Shown here in pieces: positions 54,705-64,000 of a DNA stretch of 64,000 nucleotides; positions within the stretch are counted from its first letter, which is position 1; every line of letters starts with the position of its first letter. A program made the translations under genes and the position numbers. The notes below the pieces were generated by a model, which saw only the letters and a list, made by a program, of their open reading frames with translations, did no database searches and had not been told where the DNA came from. Source of the stretch: Gordonia alkanivorans NBRC 16433. Its GTDB lineage: Bacteria; Actinomycetota; Actinomycetes; Mycobacteriales; Mycobacteriaceae. Location: contig NZ_BACI01000046.1 of assembly GCF_000225505.1 (NCBI RefSeq), positions 1-64,000 of the forward strand, given 5' to 3'.

Positions 54705-54743
54705 CTCCCTGAGGAGCGAGCTTGCGAGCGTCTCGAAGGGTCA
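54705..54743. repeat. Intergenic palindromic repeat (CTCCCTGAGG family)
   Basis: An imperfect palindrome that begins CTCCCTGAGGAGCGAGC and ends CGTCTCGAAGGGTCA, between two convergent genes. Its last three bases are the stop codon of the siderophore reductase gene. The first ten bases match the arm of the hairpin at 29797. Confidence 0.6.
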
Positions 54744-55496
54744 GGCGAAGGACTTGCCCGGAATCCAGTAGGCCTGTGCCTTCACCGACTTCTTGGGGAT
54801 GCCGTACTCGTCCTTCAGCGACGCCGCGACCGCACGGGTGCTCACCGAATCGAGTGCGACCCAACCGAAGTGGTCGCCCGCGGCGAATGCCGAGGACCGC
54901 ACCGCGTCGACGAGGGCGACGCCGTCGTGTTCACGCGCGATCCAGTGGATGGTGTCATGTGCGCGGGCCCGCACCGGCAGGGCCTTGTCGCTCTCGTGCT
55001 GGTACTCCAACCACAACGTCGCGGGCGTCTCCGGTCTGCCGGAGGCACCGATCGCGTCGAGCAGCGAGTTGATCGCCGGGAGCGAGGCCGGGTCGCCGGC
55101 GATGATCCAGCCGCGGACCTCGTCGCCGGGCATCGTGAACTTGGAACCCATCACGGTGGCGGTGATCGTGTCCCCGACCCGCGCGTGCTGAGCCCAGCGG
55201 GCCGCGATGCCGTTGTGGAGGGCGAACTCGATGCCGAAGGTGTCGGCTGCGGGATCGGCGTCGACCAGGGTGTAGCCGCGCTGGTGGAGTTTGCCCGCGT
55301 CGTCGAACCACATCCGGATCCACATAGTGGGGTGCAGTGCCCGCTTCGCCAGAAGACCGCCGCCGGTGAACGTCAGGCGCACATAGTGATCGGTGACGAC
55401 CTGGGTGCCGGTCACGGTCAGCTCGAAGTCGTCGCCGCCGAGGAGTTTGAGGACGGCGCCCTGCCAGCCGCGGCCCTTCGTCGCGACTTGACTCAC
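54741..55496 (-). CDS. Siderophore-interacting (ferric reductase) flavoprotein
   Basis: 251 aa of the SIP/ViuB family (FAD-binding, NADPH-linked), which reduces ferric siderophores in the cytoplasm. Motifs: VRLTFTGGGLL, QRGYTLVDADP (equivalent to RxYT), WIIAGDPASLPAINSLLD and a C-terminal GYWR-like KAQAYWIPG. GTG start at 55496, overlapping the acyl ligase stop as GTGA, so it belongs to the iron-regulated operon. Confidence 0.88.
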   Translation of the reverse strand: MSQVATKGRGWQGAVLKLLGGDDFELTVTGTQVVTDHYVRLTFTGGGLLAKRALHPTMWIRMWFDDAGKLHQRGYTLVDADPAADTFGIEFALHNGIAARWAQHARVGDTITATVMGSKFTMPGDEVRGWIIAGDPASLPAINSLLDAIGASGRPETPATLWLEYQHESDKALPVRARAHDTIHWIAREHDGVALVDAVRSSAFAAGDHFGWVALDSVSTRAVAASLKDEYGIPKKSVKAQAYWIPGKSFA

Positions 55497-57157
55497 TTCT
55501 GTCCGATGGTTTCGAACGCCCCGTCCTCGACCATCTGCCGGGTCTCGAGGCGACGGATCTTGCCCGACGTGGTGCGCGGAACCGCGTCGGGTGCCACGAA
55601 GATCACCTCGGCGGGCATGATCCCGCACGCCGACGCCACCTCCGAGTTGACCTCGGCGCGAGCCTTGTCCGGGTCCGAACCCTTGTACTCGGCGAGGATC
55701 ACCAGACCCGGGCGCGACGAGCCCTCACCGCGGGCCATCGCGACCACACCGCCCCGGCGCACGCCCGCGACCTCCGCGGCGGCACGCTCGATCTCGATCG
55801 GGAACAGGTTGCGGCCGGCGACGATGATGACCTCTTTGGCGCGTCCACAGATGACCAGTCGGTCGTCGATCAGGTAACCGAGGTCTCCGGTGGCGAACCA
55901 TTCCCCCGCACCGAGGTCGGGGCCGCCGAGATAACCGCGCATCATCGAGGTACCCCGGATCTCAACGTGCCCGACCGAACGCCCGTCGATGACCGGAACG
56001 TCCACATTCGGTTCGACGATCCGAACCTGCATGCCGCCCAGCGGCTTTCCGAGGAGCGCGTATCGCCGGCGGATGGGTTCGCCACCGCCGGGCGGGGTCA
56101 CGGTGACCTCGTCGTAGTGCGCGCCCTCGCCGACCGCGGGCATCGTGACGGCACAGGCGGATTCGGCCATACCGTAGGCGGGTGCGGCGGCCGAAGGCTC
56201 GAAGCCGAACGGCGCCGTGGCCTCCAGGAACTTGTCGAAGGCGTCGGCGTCGATGGGTTCGCCGCCGCTGATCGCGACACGGAGGTTCGACAGGTCGATG
56301 TCGCGCAGGAGCTTTCCGTAGCGTCCGAGGATGTCGTAGGCGAAGTTCGGGGCGGCGGTGACGGTGGCCTTCGTCTCGGTCAGCCACTGCATCCACTTGA
56401 ACGGCGCGGCCGCGAAGGCCGTGTTCGGCACCACGTAGGCGGGGATGCCCGTCGTCATTCCGGCGAGGAGGAACATCAGTCCCATGTCGTGGTAGAGCGG
56501 CAACCAGGTGAACCCGGTGTCGCGGGTGCGGTGCATACCCAGGCGGCTCACCAATTCGATGGCGTTGGAGTACACCGCCGACGCCGTGAGGACCGCGGTC
56601 TTCGGATCACCGGTCGATCCGGCGGTGCCCTGCAGGACCGCGACGCTGTTGGGGTTGACATTGCGGGCGACGAAGCCGCTGGTGTCGGCGGCGATCCCGT
56701 ATTCGGCGACCCTAGCGATGCGGAGCTGCCCGTCGACCTTGGTGAGCAGATCGAGCTGGGAGCCGCTCCCGAGGACGGTGCCGACGCCGATCGAGACGAA
56801 TCGCCTGTAGGTGGTCTCCGCCCAGCGGCTCTCGTCGGCTCCGCGGATGGGTCCGGGCAGGATGCTCACCGGAACGCCGGCGAGCCATGCGCCCTGGATC
56901 GCAGCGATGAGGTCGACCGTGGGATCGCCGATGAGACCGACGGCGAGCGGCTCGTGCAGGTCACTGTCGGCGAGGAGCTGCACCGCGATCTGTTCGGCGC
57001 GCGCGTGAACCTCGCGCCAGGGCGCGATCACCCATTCGCCGGATTCGGAGTCGAGCACGGACAGCGTGGTGTCCCCGGCCAGCATCGCCTCGCGGACGGT
57101 CGCCGCGAGGGTGTTGGTCGAGCCTGTTTCCTCCAGAACCACGCTGCTCTGCGACAT
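55493..57157 (-). CDS. Acyl-ACP ligase, MbtM/FadD33-like
   Basis: 554-aa adenylate-forming enzyme. QGTAGSTGDPKTAV is the A3 P-loop region, LPLYHDMGLMFLL matches fatty acyl-AMP ligases, and GYLIDDRLVICGRAKEVIIVAGRN is the hinge. A SGKIRR Lys lies at the C-terminus. In mycobactin synthesis MbtM (FadD33) loads a long-chain acyl group onto the carrier protein MbtL. Divergent from the NRPS; the 333-bp gap carries iron boxes. ATG at 57157. Confidence 0.85.
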   Translation of the reverse strand: MSQSSVVLEETGSTNTLAATVREAMLAGDTTLSVLDSESGEWVIAPWREVHARAEQIAVQLLADSDLHEPLAVGLIGDPTVDLIAAIQGAWLAGVPVSILPGPIRGADESRWAETTYRRFVSIGVGTVLGSGSQLDLLTKVDGQLRIARVAEYGIAADTSGFVARNVNPNSVAVLQGTAGSTGDPKTAVLTASAVYSNAIELVSRLGMHRTRDTGFTWLPLYHDMGLMFLLAGMTTGIPAYVVPNTAFAAAPFKWMQWLTETKATVTAAPNFAYDILGRYGKLLRDIDLSNLRVAISGGEPIDADAFDKFLEATAPFGFEPSAAAPAYGMAESACAVTMPAVGEGAHYDEVTVTPPGGGEPIRRRYALLGKPLGGMQVRIVEPNVDVPVIDGRSVGHVEIRGTSMMRGYLGGPDLGAGEWFATGDLGYLIDDRLVICGRAKEVIIVAGRNLFPIEIERAAAEVAGVRRGGVVAMARGEGSSRPGLVILAEYKGSDPDKARAEVNSEVASACGIMPAEVIFVAPDAVPRTTSGKIRRLETRQMVEDGAFETIGQK

Positions 57158-57271
57158 GTTCGTTCCCCGTTCTCGCCGACCGCGTGTGTCGGCTGTCGTG
57201 TTCGTGTGGATGCGTCCGGTTCGCATGTATCGCGCGGGTCGCGGCGCCCGGTGTCGGCCCGCCACCCTTGG

Positions 57272-57290
57272 ATAGGTTAGCCTAAACTTC
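57272..57290. promoter_or_regulatory. Iron box 1 (IdeR/DtxR-type)
   Basis: ATAGGTTAGCCTAAACTTC; 15 of 19 positions agree with the consensus iron box. It is 115 bp from the acyl ligase ATG, so it likely controls the minus-strand operon. Confidence 0.8.
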
Positions 57291-57363
57291 ATAGCGCACA
57301 AGAGCCCGTCCACCGTCGATGGCGGCGTGATTCAGATCATCTGGCCAGACGACGGTCCGCAAC

Positions 57364-57382
57364 TTAGGCTTACCTAAGTCTA
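57364..57382. promoter_or_regulatory. Iron box 2 (IdeR/DtxR-type)
   Basis: TTAGGCTTACCTAAGTCTA; 12 of 19 positions agree; both half-sites TTAGG and CCTAA are intact. Confidence 0.65.
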
Positions 57383-57415
57383 GTGCCCGGAGCGGGCGTT
57401 TCGTACAGCGACTAG

Positions 57416-57434
57416 TTAGTATAACCTACCCTAA
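57416..57434. promoter_or_regulatory. Iron box 3 (IdeR/DtxR-type)
   Basis: TTAGTATAACCTACCCTAA; 15 of 19 positions agree with the consensus. It ends 56 bp from the NRPS ATG. Confidence 0.75.
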
Positions 57435-57490
57435 ATTGGGCAGAGTGCTCGAGTGAAAGACGTTTCCGACCCGCGAGAGGCAATCGGCTG

Positions 57491-60400
57491 ATGGCCACGA
57501 ATCCTGAGATGACTCCCCCCATCGCGGACCTCGTCAGCCCCGCCGACATCCGGGCCCAGGTCGCTGCCGCCCTCGGCGTCACACCTGAGTCCCTCGACCC
57601 CACCGGAGACCTCATCGCCCAGGGCCTCGACTCCCTGCGCATGATGCGACTGGCCGGCACCTGGCGCAAACGCGGCATCGACATCGACTTCGCCCGCCTC
57701 GCCGCCTCCCCCACCCTCGACGCCTGGACCGCGCTCCTCGGCGGACCGTCGACTCCCGCGGAGATGAGCGCATCGCCGGAGAACGTCGATCCCACAGCAC
57801 CTTTCCCACTGGCGCCGATGCAGCACGCCTATTGGATCGGACGGTCCGACAGCCATGCGTTCGGCAATGTGGCCGCGCACCTCTACATCGAGTTCGACGG
57901 CCACGGCCTCGATCCCGACCGCTTCACCACCGCCATGGGTGAGCTGATGGAGCGTCATCCGATGCTGCGGGTCCGTGTGCTCCCCGACGGCACGCAGGTC
58001 GTCGGGCCCGCACACCCGGACGCGATCGCCGTTCACGATCTGCGCAGCCAGTCGGCCGAGATGGTCGAGAAGATACTCGCCGAAACGCGTTCCCACGGAA
58101 CGCATCGCACCCTGCCCGTCGAAGAGGGCGCGGTCATCCGCGCGGAACTGAGTCTGCTGCCCGACGGGTCCACCCGCGTGCACCTCGACGTCGACATGAT
58201 CGCGGCCGACGCCATGAGCTACCGCGTCCTCGTCGACGACTTCGCTCGCCTCTACCGCGGGGAGACCCTGCCCGAACTGGGTGTCACCTTCGCGACGATC
58301 ACCGCCGACCGAACCTCCCGCGAGATCCGCGACGAAGACCTCGCCTGGTGGCGGGAGCGCATCCCGCACCTGCCCGGACCGCCGGAACTCCCGCTCGACG
58401 ACCGCGCCGCCCGCGGCGAGGTGGAGCCGCGCAGCGTCCGCTTGCACCATTCGGTCTCGGCCTCGGAATGGAAGCGTCTCGAGGAGCACGCCCATCGTCG
58501 AGGTGTGACCCCCGCGGCCGCGGTGGCGGCGGTCTTCGCCGAGGCGGTCGGCACCCATGCGGCGAATTCCCGTTTCCTGCTGACCGTTCCGCTGTTCGAT
58601 CGTCCCCGGATCCATGCCGACGTCGAGCGTGTGGTCGGCGACTTCACCTCGTCGATCCTCGTCGAGGCCGACCTGAGCGAATCGGCAACGCTCGCCGAGC
58701 GTGCACGCCAGATGCGCTCGGCGATGCACGATGCCGCTGCTCACGGATCGATGAGCGGTCTCGACGTCCTCCGCGAACTCGGCCGAGCCCGAGGCGAATC
58801 CGTCATCTCGCCGGTCGTGTTCACCAGCGCGCTCGGGCTCGGCGACCTGTTCTCCCCTCAGGCGACCGACGTCCTCGGCGACCCCGCCTGGATCGTGTCG
58901 CAGGGGCCCCAGGTGCTGCTCGACGCCCAGGTCACCGAGATCGCCGGGGGACTGCTCCTGAACTGGGACGTCCGGGTGTCCGACCTCGACGAGTCCACTG
59001 CCCGCGCGATGTTCGACTACTACGTCCGGCTTCTCGGTCTCCTCGTCGACGGCGAATGGGATGTCCCGGCACCCGACCCGGTCGCCGATGACGTCCGTGC
59101 ACAGCGACTTTCGGTCGAGCGACCGCTGCCCGACACCGACACCTTCGACGGGACACTGCACGGCACGATCTTCGGTCGCGCGGCGCAACGGCCGACGACC
59201 CCGGCGGTCACCACCGATTCCCGGACGTGGACGCACGGCGAACTCACCGACGAGGCACTTCGGGTGGCGGGCGCACTCGCCGCCGCGGGCGTCTGCACCG
59301 GCGACACCGTCGTCGTCAACCTGCCCAAGGGTGGCGACCAGGTCGTCGCCGCGCTCGCCGTCCTGGCCGTGGGCGCCGCCTACGTGCCGATCGCGCCGAC
59401 GCAGCCCGCGACCCGACGAGACCGCATCGTCTCCATCGCCGGACCACGCGCCGTGCTCACCGCCGATGTCGACGCCTGGACGGAGTCCAACGGCCCCACC
59501 GTCATCGACCTCGACGCGGCACGCACCTCAGCACCGGTCGACCCGGTGGAGGTCACCGGCGAGGAGTTGGCCTACATCCTGTTCACGTCCGGATCGACGG
59601 GACTGCCCAAGGGCGTCCAGGTCCCCCATCGCGCCGCGGTGGCCACCATCTCCGACCTCGTCGACCGTTACTCGATCGACGCCCGTGACCGCAGCCTGCA
59701 GGTCTCCTCGCTCGAGTTCGACCTCTCCGTCTTCGACATCTTCGGTCTCCTCGCGGTCGGCGGCGCCGTCGTCGTACCCGGCGACGACGAACGCACCAAG
59801 GTCGATGACTGGGTGCGACTCCTCGCCGAACACTCGGTGTCCGTGCTCAACTGCGTGCCGTCGATCCTCGGGATGATCCTCGACATCGATTCACTGCCGC
59901 CATCGATGCGGATGATCATCATGGGCGGCGACAAGGTCGACGTCTCGCTGCTCGAACGAGTCGCCACACAACTGCCCGACTGCCGCGTCGCCGGACTGGG
60001 CGGTACCACCGAGACCGCCATCCACTCCACCATCTGCGAGGCGGACGACGTCCCGGCCGGAATGGCGTTCGTGCCCTACGGTGTTCCGCTGCGCGGCGTT
60101 CGCTGCCGAGTCGTCGACGAGACCGGCCGCGATCGGCCCGACCTCGTCCCCGGCGAACTGTGGATCGGTGGCGCCGGCGTCGCCGACGGTTATCGTGGCG
60201 ATCCCGAGCGCACCGCCGATCGTTTCGTTCATCACGACGGCGAGAAGTGGTATCGCACAGGCGATCTCGCCCGGTACCTACCCGGCGGTTTCCTCGACTT
60301 CCTCGGCCGCGCCGACCACATGGTGAAGGTCCGCGGCTATCGCGTGGAGCTAGGCGAGGTCGAAGCAGGCCTGCTCGCTCTCGACGAGGTCGCGTCGGCG

Positions 60401-60946
60401 GTCGCCTGGTCCGACGGCCGGGATCTTCAAGCCGCGGTCGTTGCCGCCGGAACGGTCATCGACGAGAACGCGATCCGGGACCGTCTGTCCGAGTCCCTTC
60501 CGCCGCACATGATCCCGCGGACTGTCACCGTCCTCGACGCGTTGCCGTTGACCGCGAACGGGAAGTACGACCGCAAGGCCCTGGCGGCACTCGTCGACAC
60601 CGCCGAGGGCGGCCCACAGGTCGTCGCACCGCGCACCCCGCTCGAGGAGGCGCTCGTCGTGATCTTCTCCGAGGTGCTGCCCGTCCGGCCGATCGGCGTC
60701 ACCGAGGACTTCATCTCACTCGGCGGTGACTCGGTGCAGGCCACCCGACTCGTGGCCCTGTCCCGCACCTGGCTCGACGCCCCGCGACTGTCGGTCGCCG
60801 ACATCTTCGGTCACCGGACGATCGCGGGTCTCGCCGAGCGGCTCACCGCCCTCGAAGGCACCCGGGTCGAGCGGGTCGCCGCGATCCTCCTCGACGTCGT
60901 GGCCCTCTCCGACCAACAGGTGGATGCCGAACTCGCCGGCACCTGA
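57491..60946 (+). CDS. Nonribosomal peptide synthetase, MbtB-like (ArCP-Cy-A-PCP)
   Basis: 1151 aa. Domain order: aryl carrier protein (~18-85, phosphopantetheine Ser48 in GLDSLRMM), cyclisation domain (~105-540; D235-x4-D240-xx-S243 as in Cy, not the HHxxxDG of C domains), adenylation domain (~560-1050: [34 protein letters not shown]) and a final carrier (~1070-1140, [11 protein letters not shown]). This is the MbtB plan (salicyl-Ser/Thr to phenyloxazoline) without the C-terminal thioesterase, so release needs another enzyme. No MbtA or MbtI gene is in the window. Iron boxes precede it. Confidence 0.9.
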
Positions 60947-60995
60947 CGCATCCAGCAGGCCCGCTTCCACCAGACACCCCGACAGCAAAGGCATC

Positions 60996-61604
60996 ATGAC
61001 CACTTCATCGGCACCCACGTACGACCTGCACTCGGTCGATCTCGACGACGTGTCGCACGCCATCACGGTCCACGGGTGGCTGACCCATCCCAAGGCCAAG
61101 TACTGGGACATGCTGGAGAGCTCCGTCGCGGACGTGGAGAAGATGATCCGGGACACCGCGGCGGCAACGGCCGGTACGCCCTACGGCATGCGCCTGGGCT
61201 ACCACGACGGGCGGCCGCAGTTCCTGTTCGAACTGTACGATCCGCAGACCAGCGAACTCGCCGACCCCGCAAGCGGTTACGTCCACGCCGAGGGCGACAT
61301 CGGGATGCATCTGCTCGTGGCCCACTCCGAGCAGGCCCTGCCCGGCTTCACCGGCACGGTGATGCTGCACATCATGCGGACGGCGATCCTCGAGGTCGGC
61401 GCCGCGCGGGTGGTCGTCGAACCCGACGTCCGCAACACCGCGGTGCACCGCCTCAACGCGAGCGTCGGCTTCCGGGTCGACGGCGACTACCCGGTCGGCA
61501 ACAAGACCGCACACCTGAGCTACTGCACGCGAGACGACTTCCTCCGCGTCACCGCCGGCGGCACCAGTGTCGGCGCCGTCGAGGTTACGGACCTGGGAGC
61601 GTAG
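60996..61604 (+). CDS. Siderophore N-acyltransferase, IucB/MbtK-like
   Basis: 202-aa GNAT of the AlcB/IucB class. Motifs: [14 protein letters not shown] (acceptor-binding region), [30 protein letters not shown] and [15 protein letters not shown] (acetyl-CoA site). Enzymes of this family acylate the N6-hydroxyl of lysine or ornithine to give a hydroxamate. ATG at 60996 with AAGG upstream. Placed between the NRPS and the NIS synthetase, it likely supplies a hydroxamate building block. Confidence 0.88.
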
Positions 61605-61608
61605 CCCG

Positions 61609-63408
61609 TTGACGATCGAACAGATCCGTCCCGCACGGACCGGGCAGACGGACACCGTGTCGTATCGGCAGGTGTATCACCGCAGGATCGCGCGGAAGAT
61701 CCTGGCCGAGTTCTCCCACGAACGCGCCTTGAGTCCGGTCGAGACCGGCCCGGGTCGCTACGTGGTCGGTTCCGCCGACGGCCGCACCGACTATCACTTC
61801 CGTGCCGAGGTCCTGTCCCTGGAGAACTGGGCGATCGAGGAGTCCTCGTTGCGCCGGGTGCGCGATGGGGAGGAACTGCCCGTCGACGCCGTCGCGCTGG
61901 TCGTCGACCTCGCCCCGATGCTCGGCATCGGCCCGCAGGCGCTGCCGGAGTACCTCGAGGAGTTCATCAGCACTCTCGCGATCAGTGCCGACCGGCCTGA
62001 CGAACGACGCATCACCGCAGCCGATCTCGCGCACGCGGACTTCCAGACCATCGAGAGGACGATGACCGAGGGTCACCCGTGCATCGTGGCGAACGCCGGG
62101 CGCCTCGGCTTCAGCGCCGACGACATCGACCGTTACGCACCGGAGGTCGGCAACCACTTCCGGCTCGTCTGGGTCGCCGCCCGCCGTGAGGACTGCGACG
62201 TGGCGACGGTGAGCGGCGTCGACTACGACGCCATGCTCGTCGACGAACTCGGCGCCGACACCCTGGCGGAGTTCGATACAGTGCTTCGCGAATCCGGTTG
62301 TGATCCCGACGATTACCGCTATCTGCCCGTTCATCCGTGGCAGTGGACGGAGAAGGTCCGGAAGCTCTACTCGGCCGATCTCGCCGACCGCCGCATCGTG
62401 TTCGTGGGCGAGAGCCCCGATCTGTACCAGGCGCAGCAGTCGATCCGCACGGTCTTCAACGCGACTACGCCCACCCGTCACTACGTGAAGGGCGCCCTGT
62501 CGATCGTGAACATGGGCTTCACCCGGGGCATGTCGGCGGACTACATGCGCACCACCCCGCTGATCAACAACTGGGTCCGCGGACTCGTCGCCGACGACCC
62601 GTATCTCGCCGCAATCGGCTTCGAGATGATCTTCGAGGTCGCCGCCATCGGTTACCGCAGTCCCACCTTCACCCCGATCACCCAGCCGGGGTCGGAGTAC
62701 CGCAAGATCCTCTCGGCGCTGTGGCGCCAGAGTCCGGTCACACTGGTGCGTGGCGGCGAGCAGCTCTCCACCATGGCCGCGCTCCTGCACGTCGACCACC
62801 ACGGCGACCCACTGGTGGGCGCATTCATCGCGCGGTCGGGGATACCGGCCGCCGAATGGATCCGGCGCTACCTGCGCACATACCTCCACCCGATCGCCTA
62901 CCTGCTGTACCGGTACGAGCTGAAGTTCTCCCCCCACGGCGAGAACCTGATCCTCGTTCTCGACGAAGGGGTTCCGGTCCGCGCGATCCTCAAGGACATC
63001 GGCGAGGAGGTGTCGGTCTTCGGCGAGCCGGAGGATTTGCCGGAGAGCTGCGCTCGCGTCCTCACCACCGAGCCCGACGAGATCCGCAACCTCGGCGTGC
63101 TCTCGGACGTCTTCGACGACTACCTGCGTCCGCTGGCGGATGTCCTCCACACCCACCGACTCGTGACCGACGAGGAGTTGTGGGACCTGGTGGCCGACAG
63201 TCTGCGCGAGTTCGTCGACACGCATCCCGATCTTGCCGACCAGTTCGCGAAATGGGATCTCTTCGCACCGGAGTTCGGCGCGGTACACATGAACGGCCTG
63301 CAGCTGCGGAACAACAAGCGCATGGTCGACATCGAGGACTCCTACGCATCCCTCGTCGACGCCGGACACCGGCTCGTCAATCCCGTCGCCGAACGGGGAC
63401 GCCAGTGA
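61609..63408 (+). CDS. NRPS-independent siderophore synthetase (IucA/IucC family)
   Basis: 599 aa. [16 protein letters not shown] is the nucleotide-binding signature of NIS synthetases; [36 protein letters not shown] and the terminal [10 protein letters not shown] complete it. NIS enzymes join citrate, succinyl or other carboxylates to amines by acyl adenylates. The TTG start at 61609 is preceded by GGGAG; an in-frame ATG at 61567 would overlap the acetyltransferase gene. The stop overlaps the penicillin acylase start (GTGA). Confidence 0.9.
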
Positions 63409-64000
63409 CCGTCACGACCCCGGCACCCGACACGTCCCCCGCGGAGATCCTGCGCGACGCGCACGGCATCCCGCATGTTCTGGCCGTCACACCGGCCGAC
63501 GCGCTGTACGGACAGGGCCGCGCCTGCGGGCAGGACCGCCGCTGGCAGATCGAGTTCATGCGTCTGCGCGCCGAGGGGCGTACCGCCGAGGTGTTCGGCG
63601 AATCCTGCGTCGAATGGGACACCTTCGCGCGGCGCGCCCGGCTCGACGCGGTTGCCGAGCAGATGTACCACGCGTCGTCCGACCGCACCCGACGCCTGCT
63701 ACGCGCCTATGCCGACGGCGTGAACAGCACCCTTGCCGAGACCGCGCCGCCCGCACCGGAACTCGCCGCACTCGACCACGAGCCGGAACCGTGGCGGCCG
63801 TGGACCCCGATCTCGGTCTTCATCATGCACCACGTTCTGTTCGGCCGGTTCACGACGAAACTGTTCCGGCTGCACGCCTGCCGCGCGACCGGGTCGGATG
63901 CGCTGCGGTTCTGGGCATTCGAGGGCAGCGAGCACGATCCGACCGTGCCGCCGATGCCGGACCAACAGTTCTTGCGCGAGATCCTCGACCTCACGCGGCC
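63405..64000 (+). CDS. Penicillin acylase-family amidohydrolase, N-terminal part (cut by window end)
   Basis: GTG start; at least 198 residues are present. The alpha-chain motifs [20 protein letters not shown] and [22 protein letters not shown] are typical of penicillin/AHL acylases (Ntn hydrolases). The nucleophile Ser of the beta chain lies beyond the window. In pyoverdine synthesis a member of this family (PvdQ) removes a fatty acyl group from the precursor, so a maturation role here is plausible; it is coupled by GTGA to the NIS synthetase. Confidence 0.85.

Follow-up and report, generated by a model that had tools for sequence, protein, structure and literature searches.

Near the right-hand end of a 64,000-nucleotide stretch of the Gordonia alkanivorans NBRC 16433 genome, a gene for a nonribosomal peptide synthetase (NRPS) shares an operon with a gene for an NRPS-independent siderophore (NIS) synthetase. 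The stretch, called the window below, comprises positions 1-64000 of contig C86 in an assembly of 5.07 Mb and 131 contigs. What siderophore would such a combination make? An initial annotation had read the locus as matching no known product and proposed an acylated phenyloxazoline-hydroxamate-carboxylate siderophore. We find that the hybrid NRPS-NIS machinery is real, and that its product class is already known. The locus is very probably (at a rough probability of 0.9) a Gordonia siderophore cluster of the nocardichelin (ncd) type, and thus a further copy of a cluster already described.

A hybrid locus divided between two contigs

Genes for the NRPS, a GNAT acyltransferase and an IucA/IucC-family NIS synthetase form one operon (57491-63408), divergent from genes for an MbtM homologue and a siderophore reductase (Table 1). 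This arrangement agrees with the initial annotation, as does the ArCP-Cy-A-PCP architecture of the NRPS. Pfam finds two PP-binding domains with Condensation, AMP-binding and AMP-binding_C domains in this protein and no thioesterase domain, and the condensation domain bears the cyclization motif DMIAADAMS at residue 235. The interval first outlined, 57158-64000, cuts the cluster, since the MbtM and reductase genes lie to its left (54741-57157) and the gene for a penicillin-amidase homologue is interrupted by the end of the window. The MbtM start was set at the ATG at 57157, with the reading frame open as far as 57313; the true start of the reductase is probably near 55499.

Beyond the window, the operon continues in overlapping reading frames from the amidase to a stand-alone condensation (C) protein, a decarboxylase and an N-monooxygenase. 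These last three genes and a binding-protein gene are the four further genes of interest to the right on C86. Five more lie on contig C126 and encode an MbtA-like ligase, MbtI, an acyl carrier protein (ACP), an MbtN homologue and a WS/DGAT-type protein. In each of two close relatives (G034 and G056), the corresponding ends of the two contigs fall 10 bases from one another, and the five C126 genes keep the identical order. Because the contig ends abut in both relatives, we regard this as one locus split by assembly. The initial annotation had suggested looking past 64 kb for homologues of MbtA, MbtI and a lysine monooxygenase; the first two are found on C126, and a Lys/Orn-type N-monooxygenase on C86.

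The segment between the monooxygenase and binding-protein genes (C86:70446-72081; L003:6446-8081) encodes an MPAB/Lcp-type oxygenase and a TetR regulator, and G034 has only about 100 bases at this place.

Table 1. Features of the locus, its continuation on C86, and related loci of the variant type. Bare positions refer to the window.
Feature	Position	Strand	Evidence or remark
SIP-family siderophore-interacting protein (FAD/SIP reductase)	54741..55628	-	PF04954 73 bits, PF08021 47 bits; 91% identity in G034
MbtM-like fatty acyl-AMP ligase	55493..57157	-	NF004510 MbtM 715 bits, cut-off 621
Iron-box-like sites	57267..57434	.	57267 and 57272 (these two overlap), 57359 and 57416; intergenic, with the divergent units on either side
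NRPS (ArCP-Cy-A-PCP) lacking a thioesterase; by prediction a salicyl-(Ser/Thr)-oxazoline synthetase	57491..60946	+	Pfam domains, Cy motif
GNAT acyltransferase, DesC/NcdE-like; predicted succinyltransferase	60996..61604	+	PF13523 108 bits; NcdE 252 bits
NIS synthetase, DesD/NcdF kind (type C by that likeness)	61567..63408	+	PF04183 250 bits; IucA_IucC and FhuF domains
Penicillin-amidase homologue, 5' part	63405..64000, ends C86:65765	+	Gene cut by window end
Stand-alone C protein	about C86:65753-67237	+	Operon continuation; HHLAVDD
Pyridoxal phosphate-dependent decarboxylase	C86:67234-68850	+	Operon continuation
Lys/Orn-type N-monooxygenase	C86:68847-70163	+	Operon continuation
Ferric-siderophore-type binding protein	C86:72390-73361	-	After the operon, opposite strand
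Variant hybrid cluster (Gordonia soli group)	G037:C23:54440-90161 (L092-L095)
Sister NIS loci, candidates for the variant type	L040, L048, L051, L066

Control by iron boxes had also been claimed. When the window was scanned with a palindromic IdeR-box consensus, only four sites appeared at up to 5 mismatches, all of them between the divergent units. In 100 first-order Markov simulations of the window, the mean number of such sites was 0.03 and the largest was 1. The initial annotation was right as to iron-box-like sites, but none in the window has 3 mismatches or fewer, and the boxes are therefore degenerate. Four corresponding sites occur in each close-relative locus (L033-L037), and a 4-mismatch site lies between the MbtA and MbtI genes on C126.

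Enzyme relationships and the predicted product

Among solved structures, the NIS enzyme comes closest to NcdF, followed by DesD, DfoC, AlcC and IucC. It scores 902 bits against NcdF (9nom) over residues 21-609 and 576 bits against DesD, compared with 261 for IucC, 195 for AsbB and 21.5 for IucA. These values bear directly on the new, citrate-based siderophore envisaged by the initial annotation. The enzyme does belong to the IucA/IucC superfamily, part of which uses citrate. Its similarity scores nevertheless lead us to reject a citrate-based product, and two further enzymes of the operon, the decarboxylase and the monooxygenase, have relatives in the desferrioxamine pathway; we give that product almost no credence. 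This is the sole PF04183 protein in the genome, and no IucA-like citrate-using synthetase was found. No citrate unit would thus be expected in the product. The aryl-oxazoline, the hydroxamates and, very likely, the acylation of the earlier proposal are retained. The carboxylate is not, because a DesD/NcdF-like synthetase and the genes around it indicate succinyl hydroxamates instead.

The GNAT had been described as IucB/MbtK-type. It is a GNAT with a PF13523 domain, but DesC/NcdE-like and not MbtK-like, the scores being 252 bits for NcdE, 81 for DfoC and 30 for MbtK. We take the Ncd names to stand for nocardichelin, and presumably the NcdE and NcdF PDB entries come from a 2025 paper by Fisk et al. 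(doi 10.1021/acschembio.5c00286), which reportedly treats nocardichelin biosynthesis as a hybrid NRPS-NIS process. The nocardichelin structure itself is said to have been described by Schneider et al. in 2007.

That NcdF and NcdE are the nearest solved structures to the NIS enzyme and the GNAT argues for a nocardichelin-type product, although the ncd genes were compared through PDB matches only. So does the N-monooxygenase, which is nearer to 6xbb (335 bits), the desferrioxamine monooxygenase 5o8p (299 bits) and putrescine N-hydroxylase (271 bits) than to MbtG (160 bits). The presence of MbtA, MbtI, ACP, MbtN and WS/DGAT genes on the abutting contig points the same way; the salicylate synthase among them scores 471 bits against a cut-off of 325. 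On the NRPS side, the closest solved relative is dihydroaeruginoic acid synthetase (664 bits).

Chemical composition provides a further argument. Combining salicylate, serine, two N-hydroxycadaverines, succinate and a mono-unsaturated acyl group, minus six waters, gives C38H61N5O8 for a C14:1 acyl group, C40H65N5O8 for C16:1 and C42H69N5O8 for C18:1. These computed formulas equal all three that PMC6467163 reports after dereplicating an extract from Gordonia sp. Berg02-22.2, where the first two belong to nocardichelins B and A, in that order, and the last to a further, undescribed congener. The nocardichelin-type reading also draws on PMC12161575, which proposes nocardichelin for an NRPS/NIS locus of Gordonia rubripertincta CWB2. 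Compared by description, that locus likewise unites desferrioxamine-type genes, including a desG homologue, with a salicylate synthase and an NRPS. With the NcdF and NcdE likenesses and three matching formulas, the claim that the locus matches no known product is not sustained. Apart from PMC12161575, none of the titles among the literature matches listed is apparently about this cluster.

The following pathway can be proposed from the gene set, with the product and each catalytic step predicted from sequence. MbtI would make salicylate, and the MbtA-like ligase would load it on the ArCP of the NRPS. The NRPS would condense salicylate with serine (or threonine) and close the ring, leaving a PCP-bound hydroxyphenyl-oxazoline. 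N-hydroxycadaverine would come from the decarboxylase and monooxygenase and be succinylated by the GNAT. MbtM, the ACP (MbtL) and MbtN would supply a mono-unsaturated fatty acyl group, which the WS/DGAT-type protein, as the most likely candidate, would transfer to a second N-hydroxycadaverine. Free N-hydroxycadaverine would probably be regained from N-hydroxy-N-succinylcadaverine by the penicillin-amidase homologue, a role already proposed for DesG. The DesD-like synthetase would link the succinyl monomer to the acyl monomer, and the stand-alone C protein would move the oxazolinyl thioester onto the free amine, resulting in a product with two hydroxamates and a phenol-oxazoline.

Several similarity scores weigh against this assignment. 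The best NCBIfam model for the monooxygenase is a putative histamine N-monooxygenase, below its cut-off (358 of 700). For the decarboxylase, the best model is diaminobutyrate decarboxylase, likewise below cut-off (311 of 900), and the protein is slightly nearer the diaminobutyrate enzyme (245 bits) than the desferrioxamine one (228 bits). Being about equally near to both, it leaves lysine as a substrate resting on context. The MbtA-like aryl-AMP ligase reaches 561 bits against a 2,3-dihydroxybenzoate (DHB)-ligase cut-off of 723.55, and the MbtN homologue, for which MbtN is by far the best model, reaches 590 of 700. The WS/DGAT protein scores 100 of 310 in NCBIfam. Finally, the A domain is typed by eye only, with serine or threonine as its predicted substrate. 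Its code, D-L-F-N-I-G-L-I-H-K, was read from PDB alignments; we take it to be Ser/Thr-like and give it little weight.

Conservation of the cluster and the fatty acyl step

Searches with the NIS protein yielded 51 loci with flanks of at most 10 kb, so a gene missed in these flanks is not thereby absent. The closest named relatives of the NIS protein itself are from Gordonia namibiensis (94%) and G. amicalis (88%), in a comparison from which its own genome was possibly left out. Twenty of the 51 loci, which come from Gordonia, Nocardia, Williamsia and Dietzia, have their genes in the order NRPS-GNAT-NIS-amidase-C-decarboxylase-monooxygenase. A phylogeny of the synthetase, as the initial annotation had advised, was built from 49 of these loci and the window; the 32 rows that we labelled hybrid make up one side of a branch with 100/100 support. 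Among 59 genomes of the genus, the NIS and stand-alone C proteins occur in the same 22, and the same cluster lacking the NIS gene, which the initial annotation had named as grounds for refutation, was not seen in this sample. The conserved order, the co-occurrence and the branch all favor the nocardichelin-type reading. Salicylate synthase is more widespread, being found in 38 of the 59 genomes, 17 of which have the NIS gene. In four Nocardia loci (L039, L041, L044 and L057) the NRPS is split, with one half upstream of the GNAT gene and the other after the monooxygenase gene, adjoining the stand-alone C gene.

The same distribution bears on whether the two halves of the machinery might serve two products, with desferrioxamines coming from the NIS part and a separate salicyl-oxazoline compound from the NRPS part. 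G. rubripertincta CWB2 makes desferrioxamines according to PMC12161575, and with a single NIS synthetase in the G. alkanivorans genome, any desferrioxamine would come from this same enzyme. The joint occurrence of the NIS and stand-alone C genes speaks against separate products, however, as do the lack of a thioesterase in the NRPS and the report of hybrid molecules of fitting formula from Nocardia and, by extract dereplication, from Gordonia (PMC6467163). We therefore consider two separate products highly unlikely. Desferrioxamine as a side product is compatible with a nocardichelin-type cluster.

With desferrioxamine clusters (DesABCD, DesG/DesH) the locus has in common the decarboxylase, N-monooxygenase, GNAT, NIS synthetase and penicillin-amidase homologue, the last also present in 6 of 18 non-hybrid loci. 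It differs in having no second GNAT over the PF13523 cut-off, in its added NRPS, stand-alone C, MbtA/I/L/M/N-like and WS/DGAT genes, and in the separate branch occupied by the hybrid-locus NIS enzymes. The mycobactin cluster (MbtA, B, I, L, M, N) shares the salicylate, aryl-oxazoline NRPS and fatty acyl genes. In the mycobactin pathway, lysines are joined by NRPS, whereas here an NIS enzyme would join diamine units. No polyketide synthase was found among the open reading frames scanned, and PF00668 occurs at two places on C86 and none on C126, which leaves no sign of further NRPS modules at the locus. Many other NRPS genes are present elsewhere in the genome and might include a separate mycobactin-like pathway; at G000:C36, about 204000-246000, an NRPS reading frame 14,073 codons long encodes many A and C domains.

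A less expected observation is that the WS/DGAT gene travels with hybrid clusters. It is present in 18 of the 51 loci, all of the hybrid type, and in none of the 18 loci without an NRPS or stand-alone C gene; in 12 of 18 Nocardia loci it directly follows the ACP and MbtN genes. The ACP on C126 scores 102 of 72 bits with NF004533. The WS/DGAT protein exceeds its Pfam threshold (49 of 23.6 bits) and keeps the motif HHSISDG. We infer that this protein puts the fatty acyl group on the hydroxylamine.

Alternatively, the GNAT might do double duty and form the fatty acyl hydroxamate as well, with the WS/DGAT protein otherwise employed. This would alter one step and not the product. Such a role would resemble that in mycobactin, where the GNAT MbtK carries out this step. 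Only one PF13523 protein in the genome exceeds the cut-off, a second match staying below it (20.6 of 27 bits), and no solved structure is related by sequence to the WS/DGAT protein, whose NCBIfam score falls short of the cut-off. Set against this are the restriction of the WS/DGAT gene to hybrid loci, its position behind ACP and MbtN, its retained motif and the low score of the GNAT against MbtK, and a double role for the GNAT seems unlikely.

The amidase may prepare the acceptor for a WS/DGAT-catalyzed step. Its best match is the beta chain of 35sz (638 bits), followed by glutaryl-7-ACA acylase (236) and D-succinylase (144). In PMC12161575, DesG and DesH are proposed to convert the succinyl form of hydroxycadaverine to the acetyl form, and the amidase matches would fit this proposal.

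A sister variant lacking salicylate synthase

Six Gordonia genomes carry an NIS enzyme 68-70% identical to that of the window. In five of them, the Gordonia soli group (G015, G022, G037, G047 and G058), no salicylate synthase passes the cut-off; in the sixth, G057, one does. A prolyl-PCP-dehydrogenase-like gene (matches to E 1e-60) occurs in those five only of the 59 genomes, on the same contig as the NIS gene and about 5-15 kb from it, although its best models are far below cut-off (180 of 500 and 177 of 650). In G037 its neighbors are an A domain standing alone (222 bits for AMP-binding; 303 of 317 with an amino-acid adenylation model), a small carrier protein (30 of 20.8 bits for PP-binding) and another protein of the acyl-CoA-dehydrogenase fold. 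An additional condensation protein is encoded at the locus as well, along with ACP, WS/DGAT, MbtN-like and MbtM-like genes. The ligase of the G. soli group and that of the window genome score 562 and 561 bits against the DHB-ligase model, both below cut-off, which does not decide for or against a 2,3-dihydroxybenzoate starter in that group. In the NIS tree, the named loci of the variant form a group, so one event may lie behind the pattern and not five.

Tentatively, and at rather less than even odds, we offer a combined proposal. An ACP-fed acyltransferase of the WS/DGAT fold would make the fatty acyl hydroxamate after a DesG-type amidase has removed succinate, and in the G. soli group the same scaffold would have been re-tooled, with the stand-alone A domain, carrier and prolyl-PCP-dehydrogenase-like enzyme possibly supplying an amino-acid-derived unit, to give an undescribed hybrid siderophore.

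Hybrid siderophores of this kind form a rare class. Nocardichelins are the only NIS/NRPS hybrid family identified to date according to PMC12161575, and petrobactin too is counted as a hybrid in PMC13036778. A draft locus split between contigs is now tied to this class, and its gene set in Gordonia is given. The conserved WS/DGAT and penicillin-amidase genes point to roles in two steps that can be tested, and a search for a new product could begin with the genomes that have no salicylate synthase.

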